A stretch of DNA of 64,000 bases from NCBI RefSeq assembly GCF_020520425.1, contig NC_079490.1, positions 2,356,001-2,420,000 of the forward strand, given 5' to 3'. This DNA is from Spinacia oleracea. Its lineage: Eukaryota; Streptophyta; Magnoliopsida; Caryophyllales; Amaranthaceae. Below, piece by piece: positions 6,187 to 44,900 of this stretch. Under the pieces are notes generated by a model, which searched no databases, was not told the DNA's origin, and saw only the letters and a list, made by a program, of their open reading frames with translations. Position numbers and translations under genes: made by a program. Each line of letters starts with the position of its first letter. Within the stretch, counting starts at the first letter, position 1.

Positions 6187-7757
6187 ATGGCTGTCCTAAG
6201 CAACAATCCTCACAAGGCTATTGCCGCGACATTGTTCATCGTGGCATTCGTATCGCTTAGTCTGCACTTTACAGGTATCTTTTTCCCTATCCCTATCCCT
6301 TATCACTATTTTCACGAGATGAACCCTGGTTTTGTGAATTTTAGTTGAAGCAAGCTAAGTCATATTACGTATTACTCCGTATTATTTTAGGACTTCGTAT
6401 TAATTAAAGATATTATAAAAATGCGAGAGGTAATAACTAATAAGGTGTTAATAACCGGTCAGGATTGAGAAAAATATTATTTTCCGGCCAAGTCCGGTCC
6501 AAATCCCTTTAAAATAGAGTTTTGGACCAGATGAGGTGCATTTCACTAAATTTATTGTGCTTGTCGTGTCATGCATGTCTTATCATATTTTTTCCAAAAA
6601 AAAAAAAAATATGTGGTCTACCTAAGCCCGATCTACGACTTTGTGACCGTGCTTTTTTATTTATGTCATTTCCGGCCGTGTTTTTCGTATCCGTATCCGA
6701 CCGTGCTTTTCGTTTCCGTATCGTGCCGTACCTCGGCCCAGAGGCATCTTTGCTTATGTACTGCAAAGCTTGTACTAATTCCTATTGACAATTTATTGTA
6801 GATGCACAAGTTGGAGTATGCTATGGAATGCTTGGAGACAACTTACCTACCGAAAAAGATGTAGTGCACCTCTACAAATCCAACGGCATAAGGGCAATGA
6901 GACTCTATAGTCCTAACTTAGCAACTCTCCAAGCCCTACAAGGCTCGGGCATTAAACTCATGCTAGATGTACCGAACGAAACGGTCCCATCCCTCGCGTC
7001 ATCCGATCCATCATCGGCGATGCAATGGGTCACGACTTATGTCGTCCCCTTTGCATCGTCGATTAAATACATCGTCGTAGGGAACGAGATTCACCCGTCC
7101 GATAAACAAGCCTCCTCGGTCTTACCCGCCATGCAAAATGTTCTAAATGCACTCAAACAAAACAAATTAGGAGACCTAATTAAGGTTTCTACGTCAATTG
7201 ATACAACCCTAATCGTAAACTCGTACCCGCCATCCGACGGTCAATTTAACGACACGTCGTCGTCGTATACCGCCCCGATAATAAAGTTTTTATCCACTAA
7301 TAAATCCCCCTTGTTAGTGAACGTGTACACTTATTTTGCTTACGTTAGTAACCAGCGCGATATTAGCCTTAATTACGCGTTATTTACCTCCCCCGGGACC
7401 GTGGTTACCGACCCTAATAACAACAAGAATTACAAAAACTTGTTCGATGCAATGGTAGACTCGGTGTACGCGGCGCTGGCGAAGGCCGGTGCGCCGAACA
7501 CGGCCGTCGTGGTGTCAGAAACCGGATGGCCGTCGGACGGCGGTGACGCGGCTACGGTGAATAATGCGGGGACTTATTATAGGAACTTGATTAATCATGT
7601 GGAGCAAGGGACTCCTTTAAGACCAGGGCAGGCTATTGAGACATACTTGTTTGCAATGTTTGATGAGGATAAGAAAATTGGGGCTAATACTGAGCGCAAT
7701 TTTGGACTTTTTACTCCCACTAAGCATCCTAAATATGGCCAACTCAACTTTAGTTGA
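6187..7757 (+). CDS. GH17 glucan endo-1,3-beta-glucosidase, canonical
   Basis: Two exons, 6187-6274 and 6802-7757, giving 347 residues, the usual length for a GH17 enzyme without appended domains. Exon 1 encodes a signal peptide with the hydrophobic core IAATLFIVAFVSLSLHF. The intron is phase 1 at the same place as in its neighbours; the mature protein begins DAQVGVCYGMLGDNLP. Acid/base Glu sits in VVGNEIHPSD and the nucleophile Glu in [16 protein letters not shown], both intact. It lacks the inserted residues of genes 1 and 3, and no C-terminal extension is present, so the product is probably secreted. Predicted role from the family: hydrolysis of internal beta-1,3-glucan bonds in callose or fungal walls. 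The intron (6275-6801) carries a GC-rich remnant near 6640-6750. This is the most likely active enzyme of the cluster. Confidence 0.93.
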
Positions 7758-9102: not shown

Positions 9103-9640
9103 CCCTTATATATGATAATGAATGGTGAGGATGAGAGTTCTCACCATAAGAGTGGTTCTCACCATAGGGTGGTTCTCATGTGAACCTATATATATATATA
9201 TATATGAGGACTATCATTTTGGTGGGCATTTTTTTAAGGAAACATCTATAGTGGGTAAAGAATCAACGTAGTAGTACAATATATGTAAAAGAAAGGGAAG
9301 AAAATAAAATAGTAGTATAATTAGGGAACAAATTAATAAAAATATAAGTGGGCTAAAAATCTAACTTTAATTAGCTATGGAGAATATTTAATTGCTTAAT
9401 ATTAAACTTTAGTCTACCACCTTACTATTTACCAAAAAAATAAAATAAATTATCCATTATAATCTCCATATCAAATTAATTTAAAACATAAAAATTAATC
9501 TAGTTTAATTAGATAACTTTATTATTTAACGATTATTTTCGTTTTTGGTTTACTAGTTAAATTTAGTTGCATATATTCCTACAAAAATAAAACTAATCGC
9601 CAAAAAATGTAAATTACAAACAACAATTTCAAATCACGCA
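8618..9640. other. AT-rich intergenic DNA with a perfect palindrome
   Basis: No gene seen. At 9055-9114 the arms 'catatataagggaaat' and 'atttcccttatatatg' flank about 14 TA dinucleotides, so the whole 60 bp can fold into one hairpin. Downstream, 9125-9185 has three 'gttctca(c/t)' repeats. Confidence 0.7.
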
Positions 9641-9654
9641 TGATATGAATTACA

Positions 9655-9900
9655 CCAAAATTGTTAAGCGTCCGGTCAAAATTGTGTCGTCAAAAAGAGG
9701 ATACCCTTCGGGTGGCGGATTTCACCACCGTCCAGTGGATTTTCCGGCGGGTGCTTCGGACGGTGGAGGTGTTACGACGGTGGAAAATGCGAAGACGTTC
9801 TACACCAATTTGATCAAGCATGTGAAAGGAGGTAGTCCTTTGAGGCCAGGGGTGCCAATTGAGTCGTACTTGTTCGCAATGTTTGATGAGAATGAGAAAC
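9655..9900 (+). pseudogene. GH17 3' fragment, divergent subfamily
   Basis: About 80 codons matching only the C-terminal quarter of a GH17 enzyme: [17 protein letters not shown], then [18 protein letters not shown] and [12 protein letters not shown]. The HH-x-PV-x-FPA stretch links it to genes 1 and 3, not to gene 2. There is no upstream catalytic domain, and homology ends abruptly after ENEK. The nucleophile Glu position reads SSKRGYPS, so that Glu is absent. A dead duplicate. Confidence 0.85.
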
Positions 9901-10147
9901 AATATATATTTAGAGAGGTGAATTAATGAATCGAGACTCTCAATAAACTACTGGGGATCAGGCTCGTTCAACAAAATTATTGTTGTTACTAATCTCGTTA
10001 GACAGGCTTTAGTTTTCATGATGGGTGTGCATGTACGTGCGTATGTTCGTGTAAGTGTGTAACCCGGATGTACTCGACCTTGTCATGCTAAATTAATAGA
10101 CCAATTACATGCATATCTCCCTGGTGACCAATTACATGTTCGTGTAA

Positions 10148-13341: not shown

Positions 13342-13455
13342 ATTATTGATACTTTTATTTAATTGAAAAACAAATTGTAAAAGTGTTATACTAAGGGTGC
13401 GTTTTGTTCAACTTATTTGATCTGAACTTATCTGAACTTATTGGAACTTATTACT

Positions 13456-14898
13456 AATTATAAATAATAAATAATAAATGATAAATAATAAATAATAAAT
13501 AATAAATAATAAATAATAAATAATAAATAATAAATAATAAATATAAATAATAAATAATAAATAATAAATAATAAATAATAATAATAATAATAAATAATAA
13601 ATAATAAATAATAAATAATAATAATAAATAATAAATAATAAATAATAAATAATAAATAATAATAATAAATAATAAATAATAAATAATAAATAATAAATAA
13701 TAAATAATAAATAATAAATAATAAATAATAAATAATAAATAATAAATAATAAATAAAATAATAAATAATAAATAATAAATAATAAATAATAAATAATAAA
13801 TAATAAATAATAAATATAAATAATAAATAATAAATAATAAATATAAATAATAAATAATAAATAATAATAATAAATAATAATAAATAATAATATAATAATA
13901 ATAATAAATAATAAATAATAAATAATAAATAATAAATAATAAATAATAAATAATAAATAATAAATAATAATAATAATAATAAATAATAAATAATAAATAA
14001 TAAATAATAAATAATAAATAATAAATAATAAATAATAATAATAAATAATAAATAATAATAATAAATAATAATAATAAATAATAAATAATAAATAATAAAT
14101 ATAATAAATAATAAATAATAAATAATAAATAATAAATAATAATAATAATAATAAATAATAAATATAAATAATAAATAATAAATAATAAATAATAAATAAT
14201 AAATAATAAATAATAAATAATAAATAATAAATAATAATATAATAATAATAATAATAATAAATACTAAATAATAAATAATAATAATAAATAATAAATAATA
14301 AATAATATAAATAATAAATAATAAATAATAAATAATAAATAATAAATAATAAATAATAAATAATAAATAATAAATAATAAATAATAAATAATAAATAATA
14401 AATAATAAATAATAAATAATAAATAATAAATAATAAATAATAAATAATAAATAATAAATAATAAATAATAAATAATAAATAATAAATAATAAATAATAAA
14501 TAATAAAATAATAATAAATAATAAATAATAAAAATAAATAATAAATAATAAATAATAAATAATAAATACTCCGTAATAAATAATAAATAATAAATAATAA
14601 ATAATAAATAATAAATAATAAATAATAAATAATAAATAATAAATAATAAATAATAAATAATAAATAATAAATAATAAATAATAAATAATAAATAATAAAT
14701 AATAAATAATAAATAATAAATAATAAATAATAAATAATAAATAATAAATAATAAATAATAAATAATAAATAATAAATAATAAATAATAAATAATAAATAA
14801 TAAATAATAAATAATAAATAATAAATAATAAATAATAAATAATAAATAATAAATAATAAAATAATAAATAATAACTACTAATAATAATAAATAATAAT
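13456..14898 (+). repeat. 1.4-kb (TAATAAA)n array next to a promoter
   Basis: Mainly the heptamer TAATAAA repeated about 200 times, with short (TAA)n stretches and one 'tactccgtaa' interruption near 14567. It begins right after a partial 'gaacttatctgaacttat' MITE (13396-13450) and ends about 6 bases before the TATA box of the third GH17 gene. Confidence 0.97.
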
Positions 14899-14904
14899 CT
14901 CCTC

Positions 14905-15022: not shown

Positions 15023-16712
15023 ATGTCTATGGCCACCCATAGGAAACCTCCCATGGCGGTCGCCACCTCGCCGCTCTTCGTCGCATTTTTATTGCTTGGC
15101 CTACACTCCACAGGTATATACTCTCCCTCCATTCTCCGTCCAAGGCCACCTTAATACTGGTGTATGATCTTGTATATATACATATATAATGTGTATATCA
15201 TATTATATAATGTGTATACCCTTAGGGTTTTCTAAGAGCAATTCCAAATGGTGAGCTACAAGATGGTAATTTAGCTAAGTTTGTCACATCAAATTTCTAG
15301 CTACAATTGATTTAAGCTACAATTTGTCACATTGGTGAGCTACAATACCTTATAACTCACGTACTATAAGAATTAATTTAAATAATTTATTTCTTTTTCC
15401 TCTTTCTTCTTTCCACCTACCTCCTCAAACATCTACAAAATTTTAATAGCTGCTTATGTCATTAATGCACGAATAATTGACTGCTTGCTCACATATTTTA
15501 GTTTTTTTTAACATGTTCCTTTTTTAACTATTGGAGTTGCTCTAATTAACTTGTACTGACGATAATTTAATTGATGCAGAGGCACAAATTGGAGTATGTT
15601 ATGGAAGATTGGGAGACAACTTACCATGCGCAGAAGATGTGGTTAACCTCTACAAATACTACAACATAGGGGCAATGAGACTCTACGAACCCGATTTGCC
15701 GACACTCGAAGCCCTACAAGGAACCAACATCCAACTCATGTTAGGGGTCCGAAACCAAGACATTCAATGTATCGGGTCGGACCAATCGAACGCCGACGAT
15801 TGGGTCGGGACCAACGTCCTCCCATACGCTACAACGATCAAGTACATAGCCGTCGGAAACGAGATCAAACCGAACGATAAGGAAGCCTCGTGGGTCGAAC
15901 CAGCGATGCAAAATATTTTGTGTGCACTAAATGCGAACGAGTTAGGAACCCAAATTAAGGTTTCCACGGCGATTGATACGGGCTTAATACAAAAATCGTA
16001 TCCACCGTCCTTGGCCGAATTTAGTAACTTGACGTACATTACACCGATAATCGAGTTTCTAACGACTAATGATTCACCATTGTTGGTAAACATTGAACCC
16101 TACATTGCTTATGTGAGTGATCGTCGTTATATTAAACTTGATTATGCACTATTCAAAAACCATAGTATTACTTTTAATGATACTTATAATGGGGTTAACC
16201 GAGGTTACAAGAATTTATTCGACGCGACATATGATGCGGTGTATATAGCGTTACAAAAAGTCGTTACACCCCGTAACGAAAAGGACACGGATTCATTATT
16301 GTATGATGTCAAACAGAAGAAGAACAACATCAAGCCGCCCCGCCCGCCCGTGAACTCCGAGAGCGGGTGGCCGTCAAAGGGTGGATTACATCACCCCACA
16401 ATGATGAAAAATAATGGTGGGAGAATAATGTCCGGCGGCGGCCAACAACTCCGCTATCAGACGGCGGCGGCGGCGCCGCAATCGGAGGAAAAACATGATG
16501 ACGTGGCAACAGTTGAAAATGCAAAGGCGTACTACACGAATTTGATCAAGCATGTGAAGGAAGGGACACCATTGACAAAAGGTCAAGAGATTGAGTCATA
16601 CTTATTTGCAATGTTTGATGAGGATAAGAAAGCCGGGGATGATGATTCGGAGCGGTTTTACGGGCTTTTTATGCCCGATCAACAACCTAAGTACGGCCAT
16701 CTCGCCTTTTAA
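15023..16712 (+). CDS. GH17 glucan endo-1,3-beta-glucosidase, extended nucleophile loop
   Basis: Two exons, 15023-15113 and 15580-16712, giving 407 residues. Two later in-frame ATGs (15029; 15053, which matches the start of gene 1) would give 405 or 397; I chose the first. The signal peptide core is SPLFVAFLLLGLHST, and the mature start EAQIGVCYGRLGDNLP is nearly identical to gene 1. Acid/base AVGNEIKPND and nucleophile NSESGWPSKGG are intact. After the nucleophile comes an insertion of roughly 40 residues, rich in Gly, Gln and Ala (LHHP..., GGRIMSGGGQQ, TAAAAPQSEE), before the conserved VATVENAKAYYTNL. A second insert with KKKNNIK precedes it. The insertion should enlarge a loop beside the substrate groove. 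Secreted; no CBM43 or GPI signal. The intron holds a 307-bp MITE. Confidence 0.9.
15236..15542 (+). mobile_element. Harbinger-type MITE in GH17 intron
   Basis: Ends 'gagcaattccaaatggt' and 'actattggagttgctc', TAA at 15233-15235 and 15543-15545. 307 bp, equal to the copy at 10148-10454. Absent from the gene 1 intron, so it arrived after that duplication. Confidence 0.87.
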
Positions 16713-23894: not shown

Positions 23895-24031
23895 AGATGA
23901 GAATGATAGGATTTGCATAAAATATATGCTTATTTGGTCAAAAGTTACTCAAATAACTACGAGTAATCCCTTTGGAATATCGTGTGCATTTTAAGAATTG
24001 TCGAATTAGAAGGATATATAATGCGTACAAA

Positions 24032-24386
24032 GTAAAGATGGTTGTTGGGTGGGCGGGCAGTGCTTTGGCCCGAGCTCACGTGCCTTAAGTTTGAACGGGC
24101 CTGATCCACGCAAATCTCACTTGTTAACTGACGGATGCGCCAAAATTTTCAAAAATGCGGCCCAGACACATCCAAACTCAAATGTCAGGTGGGTCGGAGC
24201 CACCTTACCCAAGTGTAATTTTATCCACTTTAACGTGCTTTGTTGTGTCGGGTCATGTCATGCCTTCTCGTGCTTTCCCCCAAAAATGCAGCCCGGACTA
24301 GCCCACGTACGACCCATGACTTTGTGCTTATGTCAAGTCGTGTTGCATCGTGCCTTCGAACGAGCCGGTCCGATTCAATACCATCT
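24032..24386 (+). mobile_element. GC-rich hAT-like element (probable)
   Basis: Possible inverted ends 'aagatggttgttgg' and 'ttcaataccatctt'. The GC-rich interior has 'cgggcc', 'gtgtcgggtcatgtcatgc' and similar words, like the remnant in the gene 2 intron (6640-6750). Target duplication not clear. Confidence 0.45.
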
Positions 24387-25095
24387 TTAATTAGTATGGA
24401 GTACATTTAATTCAAAAGTTTCGCTTTAGGGATTACAACCGAAAGCTTCACATACATATGACACACATTCCCCAAAAGGTTAATACCCTTGAATAGTTGG
24501 ATTAATCTATTAAGCTGCCGGTTTTCTTTGATTTTAATTTTGACCCGATTGAAAAAGCCAGTGTGAATGGGTTAGAGAGAAGTGGGTTAGATACTTAGAT
24601 ATCAGGCTTGGATTGTGACAATTATTGGGCCAGATAATCCGGGTCAACGGACTCAACCCCAACTTGATAGGCTCATATTGTTGACCAACTTCAGTTACGG
24701 GTCAGCCTTAACCAAACTAGTCTTGCGGATCTACTATATTATGGACTAATCAAAAAGCTAAATAATTTTTTATTTTTTTAAGTTTTAAATTTCAAAACTT
24801 AATTTAATGAACTAAGATAGTCTAGGTGTTCAAAAGTTGACTCGACAAAACTGACATGTAACTGATTACTCCTAATCTTAGTTTTTTCAAGTAGTCACAA
24901 CAAAATTCTACAGAAAATAGAAATGTATGACGTATCATACTATCATGTGTGAGTGGTATTGATTAATTTTCACAATAAACTAATTTGAAACGATTTAGGT
25001 CGAATCTGACTCGATCTGAATCAACATGCTAAAACTTGTCAAGAACCAAAAACGACACATAGGTACTTACCCAAATTGAGTCCAACATATACTGA
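24387..25095. other. Intergenic, nothing recognised
   Basis: AT-rich DNA with short 'gacccg' words but no gene, clear repeat or TIR pair that I could define. Confidence 0.4.
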
Positions 25096-25546
25096 CTAGT
25101 ATTCTATGCACGCAATGCGTGTAGATATTTTTAAAAATCCGAGTTGATATATATGCAAGCATATTCTAACGTTTTATAAATTTTTTAACAATTTTTATAA
25201 ATGTATTATCGATATCTTATGTGGACACTTAAGTTCTAAATTAGGGTATGATTAAAGGTAAGACTAAGTTTAATTTGGTACTAAAAAAATGTAAGATTGA
25301 AGGGATGGATTCCAATTTTTTTTACTGCCTTAATAATTGATATGTTTGGTATAGGAATTAAATTAAATTGTTGTTGACTTTAGGTTGTCACGTGCATTGA
25401 AATTTAATTTTTTACAGTATGACATTAATTATAAGTTTTTAGAATTATTATCATTAAATTAAATTAAAACTTATTAAGGGCGTTATAGTCTATTTCATAG
25501 GGGGGCCAAAATGCCATTTATCATAAATTCCCTTATAAAATAGAGA
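25096..25546 (-). mobile_element. Small Helitron-like element, minus
   Basis: On the minus strand it starts A|TCTCTATTTTATAAGGG and ends with a small hairpin (cacgcattgcgtg) 13 bases before ...CTAG|T. That is the Helitron pattern: TC start, hairpin, CTAG end, insertion between A and T, no target duplication. Non-autonomous, 451 bp. Confidence 0.75.
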
Positions 25547-25550
25547 TATA

Positions 25551-26011
25551 TATCATATATGCACGCGATGCATACAAAATTAATAAAAACTTAAAATTGT
25601 ATTTTTACTTAATATTGATGTATGGGCGTAAGCAAAGATCTTGTACATACTACGTGCAACTATACTCTTATAGTCTTTTCTACATAATCATATGTTACCA
25701 TTCTTATGGAAAATAAATACCATAATAGTTTTTCTAATTTTATAGAAAGTCAAAGATCTCCAAATATAGACCATTAAATTTTATACGTAAGGGGATTTGC
25801 CCAGAATGTAGTCACCAAAAAACTTTCCTGATTTGTTATTGATTTTCAGTTTTTAAAATCAATAAATAATCAGATTTTTAAATCAATAAATAATTAGCTT
25901 TTTAATTGAATTTAATTGTGGAATTTTAGAGGGTAATTTAGTCTTATCCTAGGGGACACCAAAAGTGGTGTTACCGAAATACCCCTCCCCTCTTCACTTA
26001 TATAATAGAGA
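25551..26011 (-). mobile_element. Second Helitron-like element, minus, 3' end degraded
   Basis: Minus-strand start A|TCTCTATTATATAAGTG at 26011, and a hairpin-like 'gcatcgcgtgc' near 25560. The CTAG end is not intact. It abuts the previous element head to tail. Confidence 0.5.
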
Positions 26012-26390
26012 TACGTAAGTTCTAATTTTATACACATGTGTAGTATGGACGCGCTAAAAATCAACATCCGACCCATTAAATTTTCACATTAAGCGAATTA
26101 GAAACAAAGTCGAATTTGACTCGATCCAAATCACCAGGAACAACATACCAAAATTAGTCAAGAATAAAAAATGACACGTACAAACTTAATTACCCAAATT
26201 GAGTCCAACATATACTCATACATAAATTCTAATTTTATACATAGGTGTGTCCCTTACCCAAATTTAGTCCAACATATACCGATACATAAGTTCTAATTTT
26301 ATACATGGGTGCATAATAAACGCGTTAAAAATCAACATCAAAACCATTAATTAATACTTTGTATTAGAAATGTTGAATTATCTATACTAA

Positions 26391-26989
26391 TATATTAAAA
26401 GGCGTTTGTGAAAACGTATATGTGTCACGTGGACTCCCTCCGTATTACGCCATGTCACCATTAATAAGCATCATGTAGCAAGGATCGAACATCAAACTCA
26501 TGGATTAAAAGTTTCACTTCCTACCATCTCAACTACCCCCTCCGTCTCTTTTTGATTTTTTACGTTTGATGTTATTCACGCGATTTAACGACTATTTAAT
26601 GTGCATTGAGATTACTCTACTTTTTTTATTTAAACAAGAAAAATTACGTTTATTTATAATGTTTTCACTTTTATCAAAAATCTGACATTGGGAAAATGAG
26701 AAATATTTAATGTCTAATAGATTTAATTGGTTAAAATAATATTTGGGCACAAATTCTGATAGAATATTAATACATTATGTGATAATATAAAAAGAAATGT
26801 AAAGAACAAAATGAGACACCCGAAATGAAATACGTAAAAAAACAAAAAGAGACAGAGGGAGTAGCTACAATGTTTGTCATATTTTCACATATAAATGTAA
26901 AATACAATCTTTTAAAATTGGGCACATTTTTCGAAAACGTAAACCAGACTAAAAGTAAAACCCGGAGCAACGCTCGGGCCACACACTAG
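26391..26989 (+). mobile_element. Helitron-like element carrying a Stowaway MITE
   Basis: Starts A|TCTATACTAATATATTAAA at 26391. It ends with the hairpin 'cccggagcaacgctcggg' followed by 'ccacacactag' and a host T at 26990. A complete MITE is nested at 26536-26861. Lies just upstream of the transporter gene. Confidence 0.82.
26536..26861 (+). mobile_element. Stowaway-type MITE inside a Helitron
   Basis: Ends 'ccccctccgtctctttttg' and 'aaaaagagacagagggag', TA at 26534-26535 and 26862-26863. Confidence 0.88.
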
Positions 26990-27217
26990 TTATAGCTTAA
27001 AACAAGGAAACTAGTTTCGTAGAATTTTCGCAAGGTAGAGAAGTTAAGAAGTCTATAAGTCAACGGGATATACGTCAACACAATAATCCTCCAACTTGTA
27101 TTAGTATTAATTAAATGTTTCACACACAACTCATTTTCTTCATCTTTGCCCCCATATATAGCATATAAGCATATTATCACATTTCCAACCCCCATCTTCA
27201 TTCACATTATTTCAAAC

Positions 27218-27227
27218 TATATAATAT
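27218..27227 (+). promoter_or_regulatory. TATA-like box for transporter first exon a
   Basis: 'ctatataata' about 130 bases before the ATG at 27350. Confidence 0.5.
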
Positions 27228-27349
27228 ATAGTTTCTTACTTTGTTAATATCACAAGCTAAAGGAGATTCATTAGCTTGAGATTAAGTTTGTTAATCTTCT
27301 TTAATTTACGGTTAATTAAGCTCGGTTTCGGCCTTTCGAAACCATTAAT

Positions 27350-27961
27350 ATGGGTACTCAAGCTCCTTCTCAACCTAATAATAACTCAGTAAGTTTTCTT
27401 CTTCTTCATCAAGTTTTCTTTATTGTTTTGGTTTTTTGGACTTCATTTTATTATTAGAAATATTTTTTTATTATGTATGAACTTCTTGTTCATACCATTA
27501 TTTGTTTTTTTGTTTTTTGTTTTTTTTTTTTTTTTGCAAATGAGTACAATAAGCTAATTAAAGGGTGATACAAATTACAAACGGGGAAATGATGTTTCGA
27601 ACCAGTGATATGTCATACTGTACACATGTCATCAGTTTTAACCACTACGTTAGAACCTCATTAGTTCATTTCATTATTAGTGATAGTCATTAATTGCAAA
27701 TGGTTCTTTCATTCTTCTTTATAGACTTTGATGGAGAACTAATTAGTACCCTTGTTCATAAGTGTTTATCTAGTGGTCACGTTATGACTTGTAAATTTAA
27801 GTTACACTATCAACGTGACATACAAATCAAATATGGTCGAAAGTAGTGCATATGTATAGGTGTGATTAGTTTTTTTTTTTATTACTTAGGTTGAAAATTC
27901 TAGTCAACCGGACCATATTTTATTTAATTTCGAAATTTCGTTTGATTTATGTCGATGTAAT

Positions 27962-28026
<65 letters not shown>

Positions 28027-29954
28027 AGTATTAGATATTTAGTTTAGAAATAATTTATACGGGATATACAAATAAGTATATATTCAAAAGAGAAATACGA
28101 TATTTATTCAACCGAGGTTTTTTAAATAAAAGAAAATTCAAACTATATTAAAAGAAAATGATACATGACAAAGTAACAAACGTACTATATGTTGAGGTGT
28201 TCCTTTCAAGTAACAGTTTTAAATTAAATTGTTTTAATTTATATAATTAAGATACTAGTTTACTACTATAGTACTATGCACGACCTTTGGTCATGTTGAT
28301 ACAACTAAAATATTAACTCATTTAATTACGTAGTATTTCAATCTCCCAAGAAAATAATAATCTACTCTTCATATCCCTAAAATTATGCTGAAAATTGACT
28401 TAAAATACGAGGATATCAACTTACCACCATGTGAAGTATTTGGTATTATGAGATGGCAATTGGCAATCAAGGTTTGTCATGTGTATTATGAGAAAAATCG
28501 TGTTACAGATTGACTTGTCAATAAAAGAGTTTTACAACATATTCGTATTAGTTTTATCGACTTTAGTCGGTTAGACTTGTTTGGTATATACAAAGTATAA
28601 TAAAGGAGGACGTTAGAGGCGTGGCCAAACCGCGAGTTTCCATGACTATTATATTCCTCCTTAATTAAGGCTGCGTTCTATTCACCTGATTTTCACTTAT
28701 TTTTTCTGAACTTATCTTATCTGAACTTATCTGAACTTATGAAAACTTATTATAGTTATAAATTATACTTGGACAACCCTTATTTTTCCTGAACTTATCT
28801 TATCTGAACTTATCTGAACTTAATTGAACTTATCTGAACTGAAATAAGTGGAAATAAGGTGAACAGAACAGGGCCTAAGCTACTTTTCTACCTTTGTTTT
28901 TTTTTTTTTTTTATTCTTTAGCTTTTTCTTTCTTTCGAAGCTTGGTTTCCACATCTAAATTCAAAAAAAAAAAGGCAATTGGCAATAAGTTTTTTTTATG
29001 TTGCGAATAAGCTACAAAGATAATGCACATTATAAACGGGGGTAAGAGATTTGAACCCGAGACCTATTTTATATAGACCCGTAATCTTAACTATTAGGCG
29101 AAAAGTACCTTGTTGGTTCAATTGGCAACAAGTTAGTTTGTCTAATACTTTTATAATTGCAAGGTTCAATTATCTAAGCATAGTTTTAAAATGCTTAGTG
29201 TGAGTTTTTTTTTTAATATATATTCATAAATATAAAGTTTTTAATATTGATGTTTTGTCTAGTATTGTACTTTTGTACGTGGTGCCATGGTACGTGGTAC
29301 ACATAACCTTTATAACTAGTTTGGACATATATGTGTGATCATAACTCCATATAAGGCCATAAAGGTGAGAGGAAAATCTTTACTTTGTAGGTAGTGAAGC
29401 GAAAATATAATACAATATAATACTCGTATCGCCATTAGAGTTTAACTATTTCGAAATTAATTTAGTTTTTCTATTATTTTCTCAGTCTCATTTTACATGC
29501 CGCATTTTAACAGTAAACTCTTCCAAAACTGATTAAATGGAATAAATAAAACGACAGAGGGAGTATGATGTTTTCAGTGAATATGATTTTAAACCCTAAA
29601 CCAATAAAATATAAATATCTTTAAACCTACATTTTCCTAACTATAGTGAGGGTGTAACAATTTTTAAGTGGATAAAAGACCTTCAATTTAAATTAAAAAT
29701 ACACTAATACTTATCCATTGTGCCTACAAAATCTTTTATTAAAAATAAAGTAAAAAATGGAAGACACCTCACAAATTCAAACACCTAATTTCACTCTCCT
29801 ATCCTTACCAAAATTCATGAATCAAAATTCAGCAGGATCGGGTTCGCCATCGCTAGAGGAGTGGGGGCCCAGATTGTATCTCGGCTCCTCTCCAACTTCT
29901 TGTAGTTTACTTGATCTTTGTAGCTTGTTAAGCTTGTAAAAATAATAATAATAA

Positions 29955-29985
<31 letters not shown>

Positions 29986-30106
29986 AATAATAAACACCAT
30001 CGCTAGAGGAGTGAGGGCCCAGATTGTATCTCGGCTCCCCTCCAACTTCTTGTAGTTCACTTGATCTTTGTAGCTTGTTAAGCTTGTAACATTTTGGTGT
30101 TTTCTC

Positions 30107-30150
<44 letters not shown>

Positions 30151-33100
30151 GAAAATAATTAGCGAATAATATAGTTTGACTTATTCCCCGACATTTAATG
30201 TGTTTAGCCCGCTAACCCAGGTCGGGTTAATCCGATAGGAATTTCACCTTTATTCATTTGACCTTGTAAAACCGAAAAATAGTGTATCTCCGTAATTAAA
30301 GGTAAGACTACGTATAAAGGGTAAAAAATCATAAGGAATCACAAGATTCAGTGATCCACAACAACTCATTGACAGAAGGGATAAAATTTCAAGATTCCAC
30401 CTCATTATATAAATAATATTCTATTATTATTATAATTATTTTCTTAAGAAAAAAACAGAAGGAGATTCCCACAAATTAATCTCCTTCTGCTAATTATTCA
30501 ACAATGGCGAATATGGGCACTCAACCTTCTTCCAATTATACTGTATGTTCTCTTCAATTACTTTCTTTTTCTCAATTTTAAATATGATATTTTTTTATGA
30601 TTTCATAAAATATATTTTATGAGATATTAATTTCGAAATGTATGTTGTTTTTAGACGTTTTGAGTGTTTATATGCATGAAATCGATCATACTTTAATTTA
30701 ATAGAGTATCATAAACGAATGGAGTAATTTTAAAATATGAATATTATCTAGAGGTTTTGAATGTTTAGATTACTTTGATGGAGAATGTTATGTTATGTTC
30801 CATTCGTTTGTACGTTTCATGGTTTAAAATATGTATGAAATCGTAGTTTAATTCGATAGAAGTATTCAGAAACGAATAAAATAATTATAAAATTAGTAAG
30901 TATGTGAATTTTTTTGTTTGAATTACGAATCCGAAGCATGTGGGGTGTTGTTTGATTCGTGTGAGTGTTGTTTGATTCATGTTGATGAGTTAAAATAGGA
31001 ATAACGAAAAAAATGGGAAGGAGTATTATAAAATTGCTAATTTTAAATTGTTGTTTTATGCATGAAGTTAAGAAAATTGTTATTTTAATTTAGCACGATC
31101 TTTGATAATCTTGATAAGGTTAATCTTCTTTCTCTTGTAATTTGATCAATATTTATGAATTTCTAACCCTTAAATTAAGATCATGAATTTCGGATCATAG
31201 CTTCCAACCATGTGACATTTTTTGTCTACTAGTGAAATTCAAATTAACCAACCATTATATAATTCAAATTACATAATCACCCTTAAAATTAGATATAATT
31301 ATTCTTTTAAGGAAACTATGCAATTACATAATCACCCTTAAATTAGATAAAAAAAGTTGTTCATTTTTGGAAACTAAGTAATCAATTTTTATGCTAATGT
31401 ATTAAAAGATTTTAAGCCATGAACCTAGTCAAACATTTTGTTCAAGTACATTGCTTATTATTCCGTATATTTTATACCCGTTTTAGGTAATGTGATTATG
31501 TGAATGGAACTCTATCTTTTTCTCCTCACTATGTGAAACTAGACAGGCTATAATTATAAGGACCTTACATGTGGACAAAATTCTATATATACACCATACA
31601 TTACTTATTATAATTTTATAGCCATTTTAGGTAACATGATTATGTGAAAGGAACTCTACTCTTTTCTCCTCCTCACACACTTTTGGTTGTTTAAAATATA
31701 CAGAGTACTACGTACTTATAAGGACCTTGCATGTGGACAAAGTTCTTTACATACATCATTCATGGTCATTTTATTCAACCGTAGTTATTTTTATTGATTT
31801 TTTTTTTTGTTTTTGGAATATTGATCAATAACACAATGACCAACATAGATAGACTTTTTATTTGAAACTTATAATGAGAAAAGTCTAAAGTGAATGACGA
31901 GGATATATTTCCTTTTACACATAAAATATTATTAAATAGATCGAGAAAAATCAAATGAAATACTCTGTAATCGACTAATTAATGTTATGTGTGTACTACT
32001 AGTTCATGGTAGGAATGTAAGGTTAAGGTTTGAGGGTGTGAAGTTGACTCGTTGACTTTTAGTAATCCTATAAAAGTCATCTAATGAAAACATCACAAAA
32101 ACAAGACTTCCAAAAGTTCATCATTTGGAAGTTTCCAACCTTTTTTTTTTTTGTTGTGTGTGAATTGCTTTAATTTCTGCACCAAATCTATCTCCAACCT
32201 TTTTGGTTCATTTTTGCACAAAATAATGGCTTCTTCTGATCCCAACACTTTATACGGGCGTCTCAGTGTAAATATCTTCTTTTCCCATCTTTACATTACT
32301 GAAAAATTTGTGAATTTCTTTATCCCATTTGATATGATTTTTCTAATTTTTGGTCTGGTCTGTGTGTTTTCTAGTTAGTATTTTTTATTTTTTCTAATAT
32401 GATCTGATTTAATCCACAAGACTAAGATGAAGAGAACCAAGTCATTAGGAACATTGTTTGATTGTCGTATTTTTCATTTCACATTGGTATTCCATCTTCG
32501 TCAGCAAGAGAAAATAGATATTGTCGTGTTTTTTCTTCAAAAATAGGTCTTCTTCCATGTGTTGAAGTGAATTTTGTCAACTTAAGATGATCACGTTTTT
32601 CTCCAAAGGTGGTAAATCGAATTACGCAGAACAAAAACATAACCAAAATCAATTTCTAATTAATTGTATTATGTTATCCTTCAATATGATTTATATCGAT
32701 TAAGAGGGTAAAATGGGAAATCCAAATCCTTAATTATGTCCATTCAAATTGTCTAAATAGGTGGCCTGGCTACTCCATGTGAGAAGGATTAGTTGACTTT
32801 GACTCACCAATGTGTAAGCTGTATTCATGCTGTCAATTTCTAATTTCCGTTTATTAACAAAATTAAAATTTTCCATTTTTAAATGCTACTATAATTATTT
32901 ATTTTTTAAATATTAAATATTAAATATTAAATATTAAATATTAAATATTAAATATTAAATATTAAATATTAAATATTAAATATTAATTGGCCTCGTGAAG
33001 CCACCGTTACCATAAAGATCATATTATAACTTATAAGATCAATTCACGGGAATAAGTAACTTGTTCTTATGACAATATATTTCTTTGTTTGTGATTTTGA

Positions 33101-36100
33101 TTCACCAATATGATTGTTTTCCCATGGTAATTTCAAGTATATTAATGGTTAAAGTTAGCGAACTTAATTAACGTGTTATATTTACGCAAAGGGTACATGA
33201 ACAAAGTTATTTTGAATGTTTAGTGTGACGTTGTTTTGAGTGAACTTTAATTAATTAACGTGAATTATGTTTTATCAGGACGTGGAAGCGAAGTTGCAGA
33301 AACAAAAGGAGATCGATGATTGGCTACCGATCACTTCTTCAAGAAACGCGAAATGGTGGTACTCGGCTTTCCACAACGTCACGGCCATGGTCGGCGCCGG
33401 AGTCCTTAGTCTTCCGTACGCCATGTCTAACTTAGGATGGTAAGTTGTTACAAATTTTGTAACATTTTTTTTGTATCCAAGGACTAGATAATAATACGCA
33501 TGCACTCCATTTTCTATATTGGCCATTCTAATGTTTTGTTTCATCACCAATTTAGAAGATATTTTCAATTTTAACAAAAAGAAAAAGGTACATTAATTGC
33601 CTAAATCTGCATGTTACAAACTTACAATGGGTATGTTTGACAATTAGCGGTTAGTTGTTAGCTGTTTGGCTAGTTGTTATATTTAGCTGTTTTTATTAGG
33701 CGGTTGAAATAGCTACATTAGTTGTTAGTTGTTTAAAGTGGAAATTTACCATTAGGGACAATGCCATAAAATGATGTAGCCATGTAGCTAGGTAAGTAAA
33801 AGTTTGTAATTAAATTTATTCAATAATAGGATAAAATTGTCATTTTACACCCATTTCTTCAAACATCTAATTGAAAATTTTCATTTATTGAGATTTTTTA
33901 ATTTTAGCTTTTTTTCATCTCAAAACTCTCTTATAAACCTCTCCTAACAAAACATTGTCATTAGTATTTTGAAATGGTCATACCTAAACCTCTAAATCAC
34001 CTTAATTTATTTATTTTCCTCCAAACCTCTTATAACCAAACACCCTAAATCTTGTAACAATTTTATGCTGTTGTTTATTTTGTACCATGGACGAAATGGT
34101 GCACTTTTGTATGTTGTTTAATGTTTATTTTGTACCACGGACGAAATGTTGCATTTTTATACACCAAAATGGTAACATAAATTACAATGTTTTATTATTT
34201 TTTTTATTTTTTTTGCAGGGGACCAGGAGTGGTAATCCTAGTACTATCATGGGTCATAACCCTATACACCCTATGGCAAATGGTGGAGATGCACGAAATG
34301 GTGCCCGGAAAGCGGTTCGACCGGTACCACGAGCTCGGACAATACGCGTTCGGCGAGAAGCTAGGGTTATGGATTGTGGTGCCACAACAACTTATTGTTG
34401 AAGTTGGTGTCAACATTGTATACATGGTCACAGGAGGAAGGTCACTCCAAAAGGTCCATGATATTATTTGTGCTAACAAAACTAGTTGTGCACCCATGAA
34501 AACCACATACTTTATCATGATCTTCTCCTCCGTACACTTCGTGTTGTCTCACCTCCCTAACTTGAACTCCATCGCCGGTGTCTCGTTGGCCGCGGCGGTC
34601 ATGTCTCTCAGGTACGCGCCCAAATACTGAAACGTACATTTTTTAACATTGTGTTTGGGAACCAATTTAATATGGAAATGTGAGAAAAAGTAAAACTGTG
34701 CAAATCTAAAGAAAAGTAAATATGCATATATATGTGGAAATATTCACTTGTTTTAACGAGTTTCACATAATTGCTAATTGGTTTAAACGACCTGATCATA
34801 TTGAGGCCGACCCAAAATAGGGGGTTTTGGGCATTTTAGGCCCATGTTTCGGGCCCAACCAAGCACAAATTTTATTTTTTTGGCAACTTAAAATTGGCAT
34901 GGCTAGAAAAGCCCCTTATTAATGGCCCCAAATAACGGGTTTTGAACACAATAAGTGACCCAAAATTTGGCATAGTCTGACATAATAGGCTGAATTTTTC
35001 GTGGCTTGGCTCGAACCCGGCCCGTCCCATTTGTTGAACAGATCTAGTCTTAACAAAGTATTTGGTCAGACTGTCTGATAGAAGACCTTCTCAACCAGTG
35101 ACTGTGTTTTGTTTGTTATGATGTTATTATGCAGCTACTCAACAATTGCATGGGCAGCATCATTAGGCAAAGGTGTACAACCACAAGTTTCATACGGGTC
35201 AAGGCACAGTAGTGATGTAGGCAAGATGTTTGGCTTCTTCAACGCCCTCGGCGACGTGGCATTCGCCTACGCCGGCCACAACGTGGTGCTCGAGATCCAA
35301 GCCACCATCCCTTCCACCCCGGAAAAGCCGTCCAAGGGACCGATGTGGAAGGGTGTCATCGTCGCATACATCGTCGTTGCCATTTGCTATTTCCCTGTTG
35401 CCTTGATTGGTTACTGGGTTTTTGGCAATAGTGTTAAGGATAACATCCTTCTTTCTCTTGAGAAACCTGGATGGCTTATTGGTATGGCCAACATCTTCGT
35501 CGTCATCCACGTCATCGGAAGTTATCAGGTAATCTTTAGCGCTTCGAAAAGCATAGCTTTAGCTGTTACATACATTAACATTCCTGCATAAGAAATGAAT
35601 TTGTGACTTTATTTCACAAGCATAGCTTTGGCTATTACATTCCTGCATGGGAAAGGAATTTACGACTTCATTTTAAAAGCATAACTTTAACTCTTACGTT
35701 CATGCATAAGAAATGAATTTGCGACTTCATTTTAAAAGCATAGCTTTAGCTGCATAAGAAATGAATTTGCGACTTTATTTTAAAAGCATAGCTTTAGCTC
35801 TTACTTTCATGCATAAGAAATAAATATGCGACTTCATTCCAAAAGCATAGCTTTAGCTATTACATTCCTGTGTGAGAAATGAATCTACGACTTCATTTCA
35901 AAAGCATAGCTTTAGCTGTTACTTTCCTGCATAAGAAATGAATTTTACCGTCCAAGATCTAGCCTTTTCTAAAATCTTATCAATGTTACTTGTATTATGA
36001 ACCCTCACTATAATTTTTACATAAATTTCCTCGATTTTGATCTCGAGCTTCATTGTTTCGCTTCTTCAGATATACGCCATGCCCGTGTTTGACATGATTG

Positions 36101-37162
36101 AGACTGTGCTAGTGAAGAAGTTGAGCTTCAGGCCCACTTGGTACCTTAGATTTATTTCTCGCAACCTTTACGTTGGTAAGTATCAATATCTTCGGATTTT
36201 GTTATCACGTTACTAGTAACACGCGTAACTATTAGTTCATCTTGTTTATAATTTGATTTTCTTTTTGCAGCATTTACAATGTTTGTTGCCATTACATTCC
36301 CTTTCTTTGGTGGACTTCTTGGATTCTTCGGAGGATTTGCCTTCGCCCCAACTACATACTTCGTAAGTCCTTTTAAAAAAACATGAATTCATTCACATTT
36401 TGAGTTCAATTATTCACATTTTGAGTTCAATTTTGAAGTGTATTGCATTTGTTAAATGTTCATGTTTTTTATGTTCTTCTCTTGTATTTGCAGCTTCCTT
36501 GCATCATGTGGCTTGCTATCCACAAACCCAGAAAGTTTGGGCTCTCATGGTGGGCCAATTGGGTATGTCACTCTTTTATTACCTCCTAGCTATCAAGTAT
36601 GCTCTGGTCCAGCCCGATTTTCATCGATTCCGGTTATTTTCAGTCCGGAAACTTTTTCGGGCCGCATCTTGGCACAAATCAGACAATCAGCTATACTATA
36701 CTGATTTTGCAACTTTGTTGTTAATTTTAGTTAGAGCTGATCATCTCGAGCCCGCCCCAAAAATACCGGTTTTTTGGTGGATTTCAGGCCCATTCTGGCC
36801 CGACCCGACACTATTATTAAAAAAAATGGACGGGCGTTTGGTCAATTCAAAACTACCAGGCCCAAAAAACGTGTTATTTTTTGCCCAAAACAGCGGGTTA
36901 TGCCGTTATGGGCACAAAAAATCAACCCAAAGTTTTGTCCCAGCCCGACACAATGGGAAGAACTTTTTGGGCCCAAACCCGACCCAGCATGGCCCGGATT
37001 TTGATCATGTCTAACTTTCGTCTCGTAACATTGGCCTAAACTGTTTTCATGTTCATGCTTCAGGTTTGCATTGTTTTCGGAGTTATGCTGATGGTGTTAG
37101 CACCAATCGGAGGACTAAGACAGATCATAATTGACGCGAGATCCTACAAATTCTACTCATAA
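27350..37162 (+). CDS. LHT1: LHT1-type lysine/histidine (amino acid) transporter
   Basis: Eight coding exons: first exon 27350-27388 (or alternatives 30504-30542 or 32226-32267), then 33279-33439, 34219-34611, 35135-35528, 36070-36175, 36271-36362, 36494-36562, 37064-37162. All junctions are GT-AG and the frame closes at 450 residues (451 with the third first exon), the normal LHT length. The body is highly conserved: [83 protein letters not shown], ending SYKFYS. About ten membrane segments. The family (AAAP/ATF) carries out proton-coupled uptake of neutral and basic amino acids at the plasma membrane; Arabidopsis LHT1 acts in root and mesophyll uptake. Introns hold two hAT-like MITEs and a minisatellite. 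Orthology to LHT1 rather than a close paralog is likely but not proven. Confidence 0.95.
27528..27665 (-). mobile_element. tRNA-derived SINE in transporter intron 1
   Basis: On the minus strand: 'taacgtagtggttaaa' (box A-like), 'ctggttcgaaacatc' (box B), then 'gcttattgtactcatttgc' and an A-rich tail. Related to 28985-29110. Confidence 0.65.
27966..28021 (+). repeat. (TA)n microsatellite
   Basis: About 28 uninterrupted TA dinucleotides in intron 1. Confidence 0.95.
28669..28875 (+). mobile_element. Tourist/Harbinger-type 'gaacttat' MITE, complete
   Basis: Ends 'ggctgcgttctattcacct' and 'aggtgaacagaacagggcc' are inverted. TAA at 28666-28668 and 28876-28878. 207 bp with internal 'ctgaacttatct' repeats. 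This is the clearest reference copy of the family seen also at 2036, 2397, 13396 and 63774. Confidence 0.88.
28985..29110 (-). mobile_element. tRNA-derived SINE in transporter intron 1
   Basis: On the minus strand: 'taatagttaagattacggg' then 'gggttcaaatctctta' (box B), 'agcttattcgcaacat' and an A-rich tail. Same layout as 27528-27665. Confidence 0.6.
29837..30148 (+). repeat. Two tandem retroelement-like 3' ends with (TAA)n tails
   Basis: 'catcgctagaggagtg', 'cccagattgtatctcggctc' and 'cttgatctttgtagcttgtt' occur at 29848-29940 and again at 29999-30091, each followed by a (TAA)n tail (29939-29993, 30106-30147). This looks like two 5'-truncated LINE or SINE copies, or one copy duplicated through its tail. 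Confidence 0.6.
30404..30413 (+). promoter_or_regulatory. TATA-like box for transporter first exon b
   Basis: 'attatataaata' context about 95 bases before the ATG at 30504. Confidence 0.5.
32044..32057 (+). promoter_or_regulatory. Paired W-box cores before first exon c
   Basis: Two TTGACT words at 32044 and 32052, directly before a TATA-like box at 32068. W-boxes bind WRKY factors, so pathogen or salicylate control is possible; that is inference. Confidence 0.4.
32068..32076 (+). promoter_or_regulatory. TATA-like box for transporter first exon c
   Basis: 'ctataaaag' about 155 bases before the ATG at 32226. Confidence 0.5.
32906..32983 (+). repeat. (TAAATAT)n heptamer array
   Basis: About 11 units of 7 bp in the intron before exon 2 of the transporter gene. 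Confidence 0.92.
34782..35052 (+). mobile_element. hAT-like GC-rich MITE in transporter intron
   Basis: 'ttaaacgacctgatcat' start and 'ttgaacagatctagtctta' end are a weak inverted pair. Interior 'gggccc', 'cccaaaat' words match the 13008-13341 family. Target duplication not clear. The intron runs 34612-35134. Confidence 0.6.
35546..35945 (+). repeat. Minisatellite, about 60-bp unit, transporter intron 4
   Basis: Seven or so units, each with 'aaaagcatagctttagct', 'gcataagaaatgaattt' and 'gcgacttcatttt', varying slightly; one unit is shortened. It starts 18 bases after the exon 4 donor. Confidence 0.9.
36731..37014 (+). mobile_element. hAT-like GC-rich MITE in transporter last intron
   Basis: Ends 'ttagagctgatcat' and 'tgatcatgtctaa' are inverted. 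Interior words as in 13008-13341. No exact 8-bp target duplication found. It fills most of the intron 36563-37063. Confidence 0.7.
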
Positions 37163-41900: not shown

Positions 41901-44900
41901 AGGAACATGAGAAGATTTCAAGATATTGATACTGATACACAAGGCATTATTCGGCAGATTCAATATATTGTTTTTGTTCGTTGCTTTAAGAGTAAAATCT
42001 CTATGTTTTGGAGTTGTGCTTTTTTCCCCCTTTTTTTGGGGTTCCTTAGTTATGTTCCTAGAAGGACTGTTAACTTTGGTTTGTTCCCCCTCTTTCGTCT
42101 GTATGTTGTATAGCTTATACTCCAATGTTTTGGTTAATATAATTCATCATTTACCAAAAAAAAAAGTGAAAGGCTCAAACCTTATCAGGGTGATGCCTCA
42201 AAGCAGCTTTACGATAAGCTTTCTTCAGATCTTTTGCTGTAACAGATGGCTCTACTCCCCTGCCACCAGGATTGAGACAAAAACTGATGTAAGAAGACAG
42301 TAGTCCATTTTCTCACTACTTAGCCCAAGAAAGAAAAACTAAGTCTAAAATTCAGGAACAGAAAATAACAACTGCTATAAAAACACTCACAAAATGAGGT
42401 AAAAATTCAAAGGTAGTCCTTTCTTAGCTTGCTCCTCCATCAGATAAAGCCGCTGCCGAGCTTGTCTTAGATCAGCTACAGAGCCCAATGGCAAATATGC
42501 TCCTGCATGAGTTGACTTTTCCTCTGCCTGCTTAGTTAGAAGAGACACAAGTCTCTCAAGATCTTTCGCTGCCTGTTCATAGTCTCTAATCATCTCAAAT
42601 AAGGTGGCTCTTCTTGATATTGCCTGAAACATAAAGAATTTTAAATGGGATTCAGTTTAGATATCATTTCAGAAACATAACCCGTATCCTGTACTTCCAA
42701 AAGAAAAAAAAACTATTAGCTCAAGCAAAGCCTTCGAAGGCATCGTTTCAATGATAGAAAGATTAATAGCCAAGGATGAAAGACAAGTTGGGCTTCACAC
42801 TTAAACTCTCTCTGTGAACACTAGACTCTACCTTTTCGACTTTTCCAGTAACCAAATGTGAATTATGACAGTGGGAAAAGCCATCAATTAGGGAATTTTT
42901 CTAACCAATAACCTGGAGTAAGGTATAAGTAATACCAACTAATACCCTGAACTGTTTTGAGCGATTGTCTGCAAAGAACTCATTGTGCTCACTTATTCTA
43001 GAATGAACTCTGAGGGTAAGTAGGGAAAGGCATAATTAGTTAGTAATATCAGAAAAGGGAAGGGTAATTCTGTTTCATAAAGTTAGTTATGAGGAAAAGT
43101 GGGTTATATAATAAATAAGGAGAAAAGCTGTCACTAAGGGTTCCTATGTCTCCACTTTTGTTCGTTTTGGCTATGGAATACTTTACTAGATTGCTACAGA
43201 AAGTAAGCAATACTAGGGGTTTTAGCTTTCATTATAGATGCAGAGGTTTGAAGCTTAATCACCTAATATTTGCTGATGATCTTATGATATTCACAAAAGG
43301 GGAAGTTAAGTCTGTGAGAATGGTTACCAGAGCTCTAAATAGATTTGCAGTATGTTCTGGTCTTATGGCAAATATTGATAAAACTGCTATTTATTTTGGT
43401 AGTGTTTCAGAGGACATTCAACAAGATATTCTGAATGGTTCATGATTTGTCAAGGGTACTTTTCCTTTTCGATACTTGGGGGTTCCTTTGAATGCAAAAA
43501 GGGTTTCCGTTGCTGATTGTGATATCTTGGTTAACAAGATTACCAATATAACTATGTGCTAGAGTAACAGACATCTTTCATATGCTGCCAGAACTGTGTT
43601 GGTAAATGCTGTTTTGATGAGTATAAATACCTACTGGGCTCAAGTGTTCACTATGCCCAAAATGGCGCTTCAGAAAAGTGTTCAATTGTGTAGAGCTTTC
43701 TTATGGGAGGGAAAGGCTATCCTTTCTAAGTCACCATAGATAGCTTGGGATTGGATTTGTAGGCCTAAATGTTGTGGTGGTCTAGGTGTTAGGGACTGTA
43801 TTGGCTGGAACAAGGCTTCACAAGGGAAGTATGTCTGGCAGATTGCAATGAAGGCTGACATGTTGTGGGTTAAATGGATCCACAGTGTGTACATAAAGGA
43901 TCAAAATTGGTGGGACTATGTTCCACCTCGGGGTGCCAGTTGGAGGTTGAAGAATATTTTTAGAGTAAAGGATGAAATGAAGGAGGGCTTTGTTTCTAAT
44001 GGATGGGCAACTGTTGGTAAGCACTATACTATTTCTGCTGGTTATAAGTGGTTGAAGGGAGATATGCCCAAGGCCCCTTGGTCACATTGGGTATGAAGTA
44101 AACTGAATGTGCCACGACATTCTTGTATTGCTTGGATGGCAGTTCAAGGGCGATTACGAAACAAAGATAGGCTACTGAGAGTAGGGGAAAATGTTGATGC
44201 AGACTGTTTTCTTTGTGGTCAGGCAGATGAAGAGGCTAAACATGTGTTCTTCTTGTGCCCTGTAAGTAGCATTTGTATGACTGTGATCAGCAGATGGGTT
44301 GGGATTAATTACAGAAATCAGGAAGATACTTTCACTATGTGGAGGAGATGGGAAAGAACATATAAGAGTAAGCATAGGAGGGAAATTGTGTATGCTACAC
44401 TTGCTGCTATGGTATACTTACTATACTATATCTGGCAAGCTCGAAACGAGGTCCTTTGGTATGCAAAGTTAGTCATGCCTTCTGTTTTGATGAAGAGAAT
44501 GCAATATGATGTTTGCAGTCGAGTCAAAGCTTGATAACAGCAAAATGGAATGCTGAGGATCTAGCCTGGTTCAATAGTCTGCAGAATTCTAGGAGTTGTT
44601 AACCTTTTTGTTTTGTCTTAGCCTTTCCAAGGTTGACCTTTGGTAATTTTAGGCAGGTAGTAGGTGCTGATGCTGTTAGTGTTTTTTTTGTTGGAGTGTT
44701 GTTTGGTTTTTTTTGTAGTGGTTAGGGTTGTAGCCTTGTAGGTAGTTTGTATAGTGAGGATTTGCCTCCCTGTCTCTCTTTGTACATTTTTTGACATCAA
44801 TGTTATTATTTACTTATCAAAAAAAAAAAAAAAAAAAGAGAGAAGCTGTAAAAGGTGATTATGCTGATTGTTGTGACAGAAACTTTATTGGGAGGGAATA

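Follow-up and report, generated by a model that had tools for sequence, protein, structure and literature searches.

Does transcription of a single spinach amino acid transporter gene begin at one place or at three? The gene lies in 64,000 nt of Spinacia oleracea DNA (contig NC_079490.1, positions 2,356,001–2,420,000; this whole stretch is hereafter the window). It is complete, with eight exons counting one first exon; seven of these, joined by GT-AG junctions, span 33279–37162. It is presumably of the LHT1 type, a label based on the sequence of Arabidopsis LHT1. A sequence-only reading had proposed three alternative first exons, here called 1a, 1b and 1c, each able to splice to position 33279. 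With moderate confidence, the locus is interpreted here as one LHT1-type importer gene with three mutually exclusive first exons (type I alternative first exons, AFEs), each with its own putative TATA promoter and 5′ leader.

Three candidate first exons

First exon 1a (27350–27388, + strand) comprises 13 codons from its ATG to the donor GTAAGT. Exon 1b (30504–30542, +) also has 13 codons, with the donor GTATGT and a second in-frame ATG at 30513, and exon 1c (32226–32267, +) has 14 codons and the donor GTAAAT. All three end in phase 0 and join in frame to the GAC at 33279, after ...TTTTATCAG. The coordinates, peptides, phase and GT donors given for them by the sequence-only reading are correct. 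The ATGs of 1a and 1b are 3,154 bases apart and those of 1b and 1c 1,722 bases apart.

TATA-like boxes had been placed 95–155 bases upstream of each ATG, which is close to what a pattern listing gives. For 1a, TATAWA occurs at 27155, 27218 and 27225 (27155–27230, +), that is 125–132 bases (27218/27225) or 195 bases (27155) upstream. The box of 1b, TATATAAATA, with TATAWA at 30406/30408 (30406–30415, +), lies 96–98 bases before the ATG, and the TATAAA of 1c (32069–32074, +) 157 bases before. Just upstream of the latter, by 17–25 bases, are two TTGACT motifs, which we take to be W-box-like, at 32044 and 32052 (32044–32057, +). This pair is the single sequence hint of the tissue- or stress-specific promoters that had been suggested, and it is treated as a lead only; TTGACT occurs 19 times in 24000–33278.

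The three start codons stand out from their neighbours. Among the 175 ATGs in 24000–33278, 12 have A at −3 together with G at +4, and 1a, 1b and 1c are all among these 12. The ATG-free stretches upstream of them are 235, 306 and 142 bases long, respectively (median for the 175 ATGs, 33), ranking 4th, 2nd and 13th. A-3/G+4 coincides with an ATG-free stretch of at least 100 bases at five of the 175 ATGs: those of 1a, 1b and 1c and those at 24741 and 29757, the last two of which have no donor passing the composite filter described below.

How often such a set would arise by chance depends strongly on what is demanded of it. With a loose donor (GT[AG] after 10–16 codons, region 27000–33278) there are nine candidates, five of them with a TATA box, compared with simulated means of 7.1–8.3 and 3.0–4.5, respectively. 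These counts match the simulation; thus the ATG, GT and TATA features on which the first proposal was built are, by themselves, no evidence. When the donor is held to a strict form (GT[AG][AT]GT or GTAAAT, a set picked after the three sites had been viewed), exactly 1a, 1b and 1c remain, compared with simulated means of 0.50–0.58. Three or more such sites occurred in 2.0–2.4 % of 1000 runs, and in 0.3–0.8 % when a TATA box was also demanded. A composite filter (A-3/G+4, 100 ATG-free bases upstream and a phase-0 GT[AG] donor after 8–20 codons), its thresholds likewise fixed with the three sites in view, again passes exactly 1a, 1b and 1c in 6,279 bases, with a simulated mean of 0.116–0.146. Three or more passes were seen in 0 of 3000 first-order runs and 2 of 3000 third-order runs. 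Applied to both strands of the whole window, it gives 10 passes, 1a, 1b and 1c included. As a control on real DNA, both strands of 11 other loci from the same genome (95,762 bases) gave three passes, or 0.20 per 6,279 bases. A chance origin for the set of three is thus made unlikely by the composite filter, not by the features first cited.

The downstream part of the gene points the same way. Exon 2 (33279–33439, +), common to all isoforms and with weaker matches elsewhere in the genome, offers in its frame a single poor ATG, at 33267 (MFYQDVEAK...), with T at +4 and another ATG 51 bases upstream. Additionally, no TATAWA box is listed between 32069 and 33278. Given this poor ATG and the lack of a listed box, an upstream first exon is probably required. 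A search of the same genome at the protein level found 12 places, of which seven (L015–L019 not among them) were frame-checked; the frame was printed for five, namely the window gene and the four paralogues closest to it, and two others (L013 and L014) gave no row. In the corresponding exon of each of these four LHT paralogues, an in-frame ATG lies about 15–30 codons into the frame and would be available as a start. The window gene is unusual among the five in being without a good start in this exon. The three sites might instead be products of chance, with the true start at 33267 or in an unseen non-coding first exon. The in-frame ATG at 33267 and the starts available in the paralogues favour this, but the context of that ATG, the lack of a listed TATAWA box after 32069 and the rarity of three composite-filter starts in the simulations leave it only a very slim chance.

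Duplication, splicing and use of the first exons

The sequence-only reading had also taken 1a and 1b for duplicates and 1c for an unrelated exon, and both statements agree with the alignments. The local alignment of 1a and 1b runs from the TATA region through the leader and exon and reaches the intron; its score, 63, was matched by 1 of 500 shuffle pairs. When 818 tiles are scored against the 1a region, the one with 1b comes first. The sequences flanking the exon agree at 133 of 182 aligned bases (73 %). The three gaps within the exon are each of 3 bases, while only 2 of the 14 gaps in the flanks are multiples of three. These observations fit an old duplication of a promoter plus first exon. 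Exon 1c shows no similarity to 1a or 1b above that of shuffles. Searches of the genome with the 1a and 1c regions returned only the regions themselves; as the 1a query also missed 1b, copies diverged to this degree would escape such a search.

Under the favoured interpretation, transcription would begin after each TATA box, and each first exon would be spliced across any later first exons to 33279. The isoforms would differ solely in the first 13–14 residues of a cytosolic, probably unstructured N-terminus. Because the difference would be confined to these residues, the choice of first exon would mainly affect the place, timing and level of transporter production rather than transport. For Arabidopsis LHT1 an intracellular N-terminus is predicted (PMC8359683), and transport itself would thus probably be unchanged.

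A different arrangement (type II AFEs) would have transcription start from 1a, with 1b, 1c or both included optionally as internal exons. The serial order of the three exons on one strand would allow this, and type II is the majority class of AFEs in rice and Arabidopsis (PMC2174465). The acceptors speak against it: there is no AG between 32131 and 32264, leaving 1c without the close upstream acceptor that an internal exon would require, and no pyrimidine tract accompanies the AGs just ahead of 1b (30447–30463). Use of 1b or 1c as an internal exon thus appears unlikely from the acceptors, and with a separate TATA box present for each exon the arrangement as a whole is rated as very improbable.

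The donors are the main weakness of the proposal of three first exons. The pairing of the 1a donor with U1 is −5.1 kcal/mol (rank 29 of 349 GTs), and the six other donors of the transporter gene range from −5.2 to −8.6 kcal/mol. Several observations weigh against that proposal. The donors of 1b and 1c pair with U1 at only −1.1 kcal/mol (rank 198 of 349) and −2.6 kcal/mol (rank 93 of 349), respectively. When the donor rule of the composite filter is swapped for a U1 pairing energy no weaker than −4 kcal/mol, 1a alone stays; at a cut-off of −3, 1a stays and the 1c ATG is left with a donor other than its own, at 32358. The acceptor common to all three, at 33278, is modestly supplied with pyrimidines (9 of 15 positions), and a count of 10 or more is reached by at least 15 other YAGs in the region. 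The duplication is also open to some question: the highest-scoring shuffle pair reached 77, exceeding the 1a–1b score, and a reverse scan with the 1b region places the 1a tiles third and fourth, after two minus-strand tiles. Furthermore, at the divergence of the flanks, substitutions alone would keep ATG, frame and donor in 12 % of copies, so that the intactness of both duplicates is mild evidence.

Weak U1 pairing means that one or both of 1b and 1c could be little used. A single first exon, most likely 1a, might then be the only one appreciably used, with the others being relics of the old duplication or chance look-alikes. To the weak donors, and a U1-based filter that passes 1a alone, can be added the share of decaying copies that would still seem intact and the chance-level yield of the loose criteria. 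Set against these, A-3/G+4, a long ATG-free stretch and a TATA box are kept in all three, and every gap between the 1a and 1b exons is a multiple of three. Single use of this kind is considered unlikely, if well short of negligible. For three first exons as such, the exon anatomy and the composite filter thus uphold what was first proposed, while its original criteria and the donors of 1b and 1c do not.

Hairpins in the predicted leaders

Leaders were set at 27187–27349 for 1a, 30434–30503 for 1b and 32100–32225 for 1c, with the start about 26–32 bases after a TATA box. A long stem is predicted in each. The 1a hairpin (27258–27303, +) has 11 bp including one G-U pair, with arms TAAAGGAGATT / AATCTTCTTTA and a z-score of −3.4 for the isolated hairpin; were transcription of 1a to start from the nearer TATA box (27218/27225), this stem would sit at the very beginning of the leader. 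The 1b hairpin (30456–30489, +), a perfect 12 bp located 14 bases before the ATG, has a folding energy of −16.4 kcal/mol and a z-score of −6.4. The 11 bp hairpin of 1c (32104–32134, +) has −11.6 kcal/mol and, in isolation, a z-score of −4.3. By alignment the 1a and 1b stems are homologous, a G-C pair in 1b corresponding to the G-U pair in 1a; the loops, of 24 bases in 1a and 10 in 1b, are different.

Stems of at least 11 bp with at least two G-C and at most one G-U pairs occur at eight distinct + strand sites in the window, and three of these lie in the leaders of 1a, 1b and 1c, where 0.04 would be expected; these statistics were made after the fact and, given their homology, the 1a and 1b stems are not independent. 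Across 16 threshold settings on the + strand, all three leaders count in six, 1b and 1c in six, and 1b alone in four. Compared with 400 GC-matched random segments each, the folding energy of 1b is exceptional (0.5 %), with 1a at 9.5 % and 1c at 9.3 %. The fold of a longer 1c stretch (32100–32240) is unremarkable (z −1.09, equalled by 28 of 200 shuffles). No known RNA family at gathering score and no tRNA were found within the window.

In the 160 bases before the ATG of the four closest paralogues, a strong hairpin is present in one, a weak one in one and none in two. The strong one is that of L012, in its presumed leader from about 79 bases upstream of the ATG (−15.4 kcal/mol over 45 nt), unlike L009 and L010, which are without a strong leader hairpin. 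Leader hairpins are thus not general in the LHT family.

The hairpins may add promoter-specific tuning of translation. A functional version, in which the choice of promoter would set one of three translation levels, with the stem kept through the 1a/1b duplication and arisen independently in 1c, is regarded as doubtful. The PIF7 RNA ThermoSwitch (PMC13353011) is likewise a plant leader hairpin near the start, 25 nt from it in PIF7 and 14 nt in 1b. A switch of this type was considered and rejected for the leaders here: in ViennaRNA folding from 10 to 42 °C the stems stay paired (mean pair probability 0.81–0.99), predicted pairing is nearly constant and there is no relaxing between 22 and 27 °C. 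Given this constant pairing, heat melting is unlikely, unlike in PIF7, and a closer model would be fixed damping or the binding of a protein.

Known systems, shared exons and surroundings

Alternative first exons are a known gene design, although three of them are unusual. Chen et al. 2007 (PMC2174465) count 137 type I AFEs in rice and 99 in Arabidopsis, of which three in rice and seven in Arabidopsis combine an altered N-terminus with a putative alternative promoter (Table 2). As with the plant type I AFEs described there, the spinach candidates lie on one strand, share the downstream exons and would alter the N-terminus, with exclusivity proposed here; starts of type I exons are more than 500 bp apart, and the candidates have ATG spacings of 3,154 and 1,722 bases and their own TATA-like boxes. 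They differ in being predicted from sequence alone, and in the extra feature that two of the three are duplicates.

Arabidopsis LHT1 is placed in root epidermis and leaf mesophyll by the title of a 2006 paper cited in PMC9213295, and its transcript is raised in infections (PMC9213295). The Pfam domain Aa_trans (PF01490) covers residues 37–435 of 451 in the 1c isoform (E 6.7e-113), spanning most of the protein. This places the window gene in the AAAP superfamily. It resembles Arabidopsis LHT1 in being an amino acid importer that belongs to the same family, as judged by Pfam and presumably also by sequence, and differs in offering up to three predicted N-termini. In the literature searched, no report of LHT1 alternative first exons was found (for broader queries, among the matches listed), a ‘first exon’ match concerning OsAAP11. 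Nor did the peptide letters have a match in the literature text searched. None of the spinach papers found for ‘lysine histidine transporter’ concerns the window gene judging by title, and LHT is not mentioned in the spinach papers searched for it.

If three promoters split the tasks of LHT1 in a leafy crop, a single locus would allow root uptake to be studied and bred separately from leaf supply. It would also illustrate how a promoter and first exon, once duplicated, are retained. Apart from that, the gene is of ordinary design.

Downstream of exon 2, the gene model continues on the + strand with exon 3 (34219–34611), exon 4 (35135–35528), exon 5 (36070–36175), exon 6 (36271–36362), exon 7 (36494–36562) and exon 8 (37064–37162, to the stop codon). 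The intron after exon 4 carries a tandem repeat (35525–35974) with a period of about 59 bases (copy spacings 59, 59, 48, 59 and 59). A search of the PDB with the transporter returned six distant sequences (AUX1, proton-coupled amino acid transporter 1 and sodium-coupled neutral amino acid transporter 9). No relatives were confirmed in viral contigs (exon 4 query, 131 aa) or genome contigs (whole protein).

Several repetitive elements surround the candidate first exons. Upstream of the 1b promoter are two 93-base repeats (29847–29939 and 29997–30089), 97 % identical and each shortly followed by a (TAA)n run, which look like the 3′ ends of retroelements. Segments with inverted repeats of 33–35 bases at their borders, similar to miniature inverted-repeat transposable elements, are located within (28668–28876) and before (26533–26864) the long first intron. 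Further away, remnants of a reverse transcriptase (43119–44534; RVT_1 and zf-RVT matches) resemble a long interspersed nuclear element, and a large AT-rich low-complexity stretch (13438–14903) contains long repetitive frames on the minus strand. Frames of the GH17 family (beta-1,3-glucanase type) are matched by Pfam on the + strand at 2706–3806, 6789–7757 and 15546–16712, with a further GH17-like fragment, its likeness judged by eye, in the vicinity of 9597–9926.

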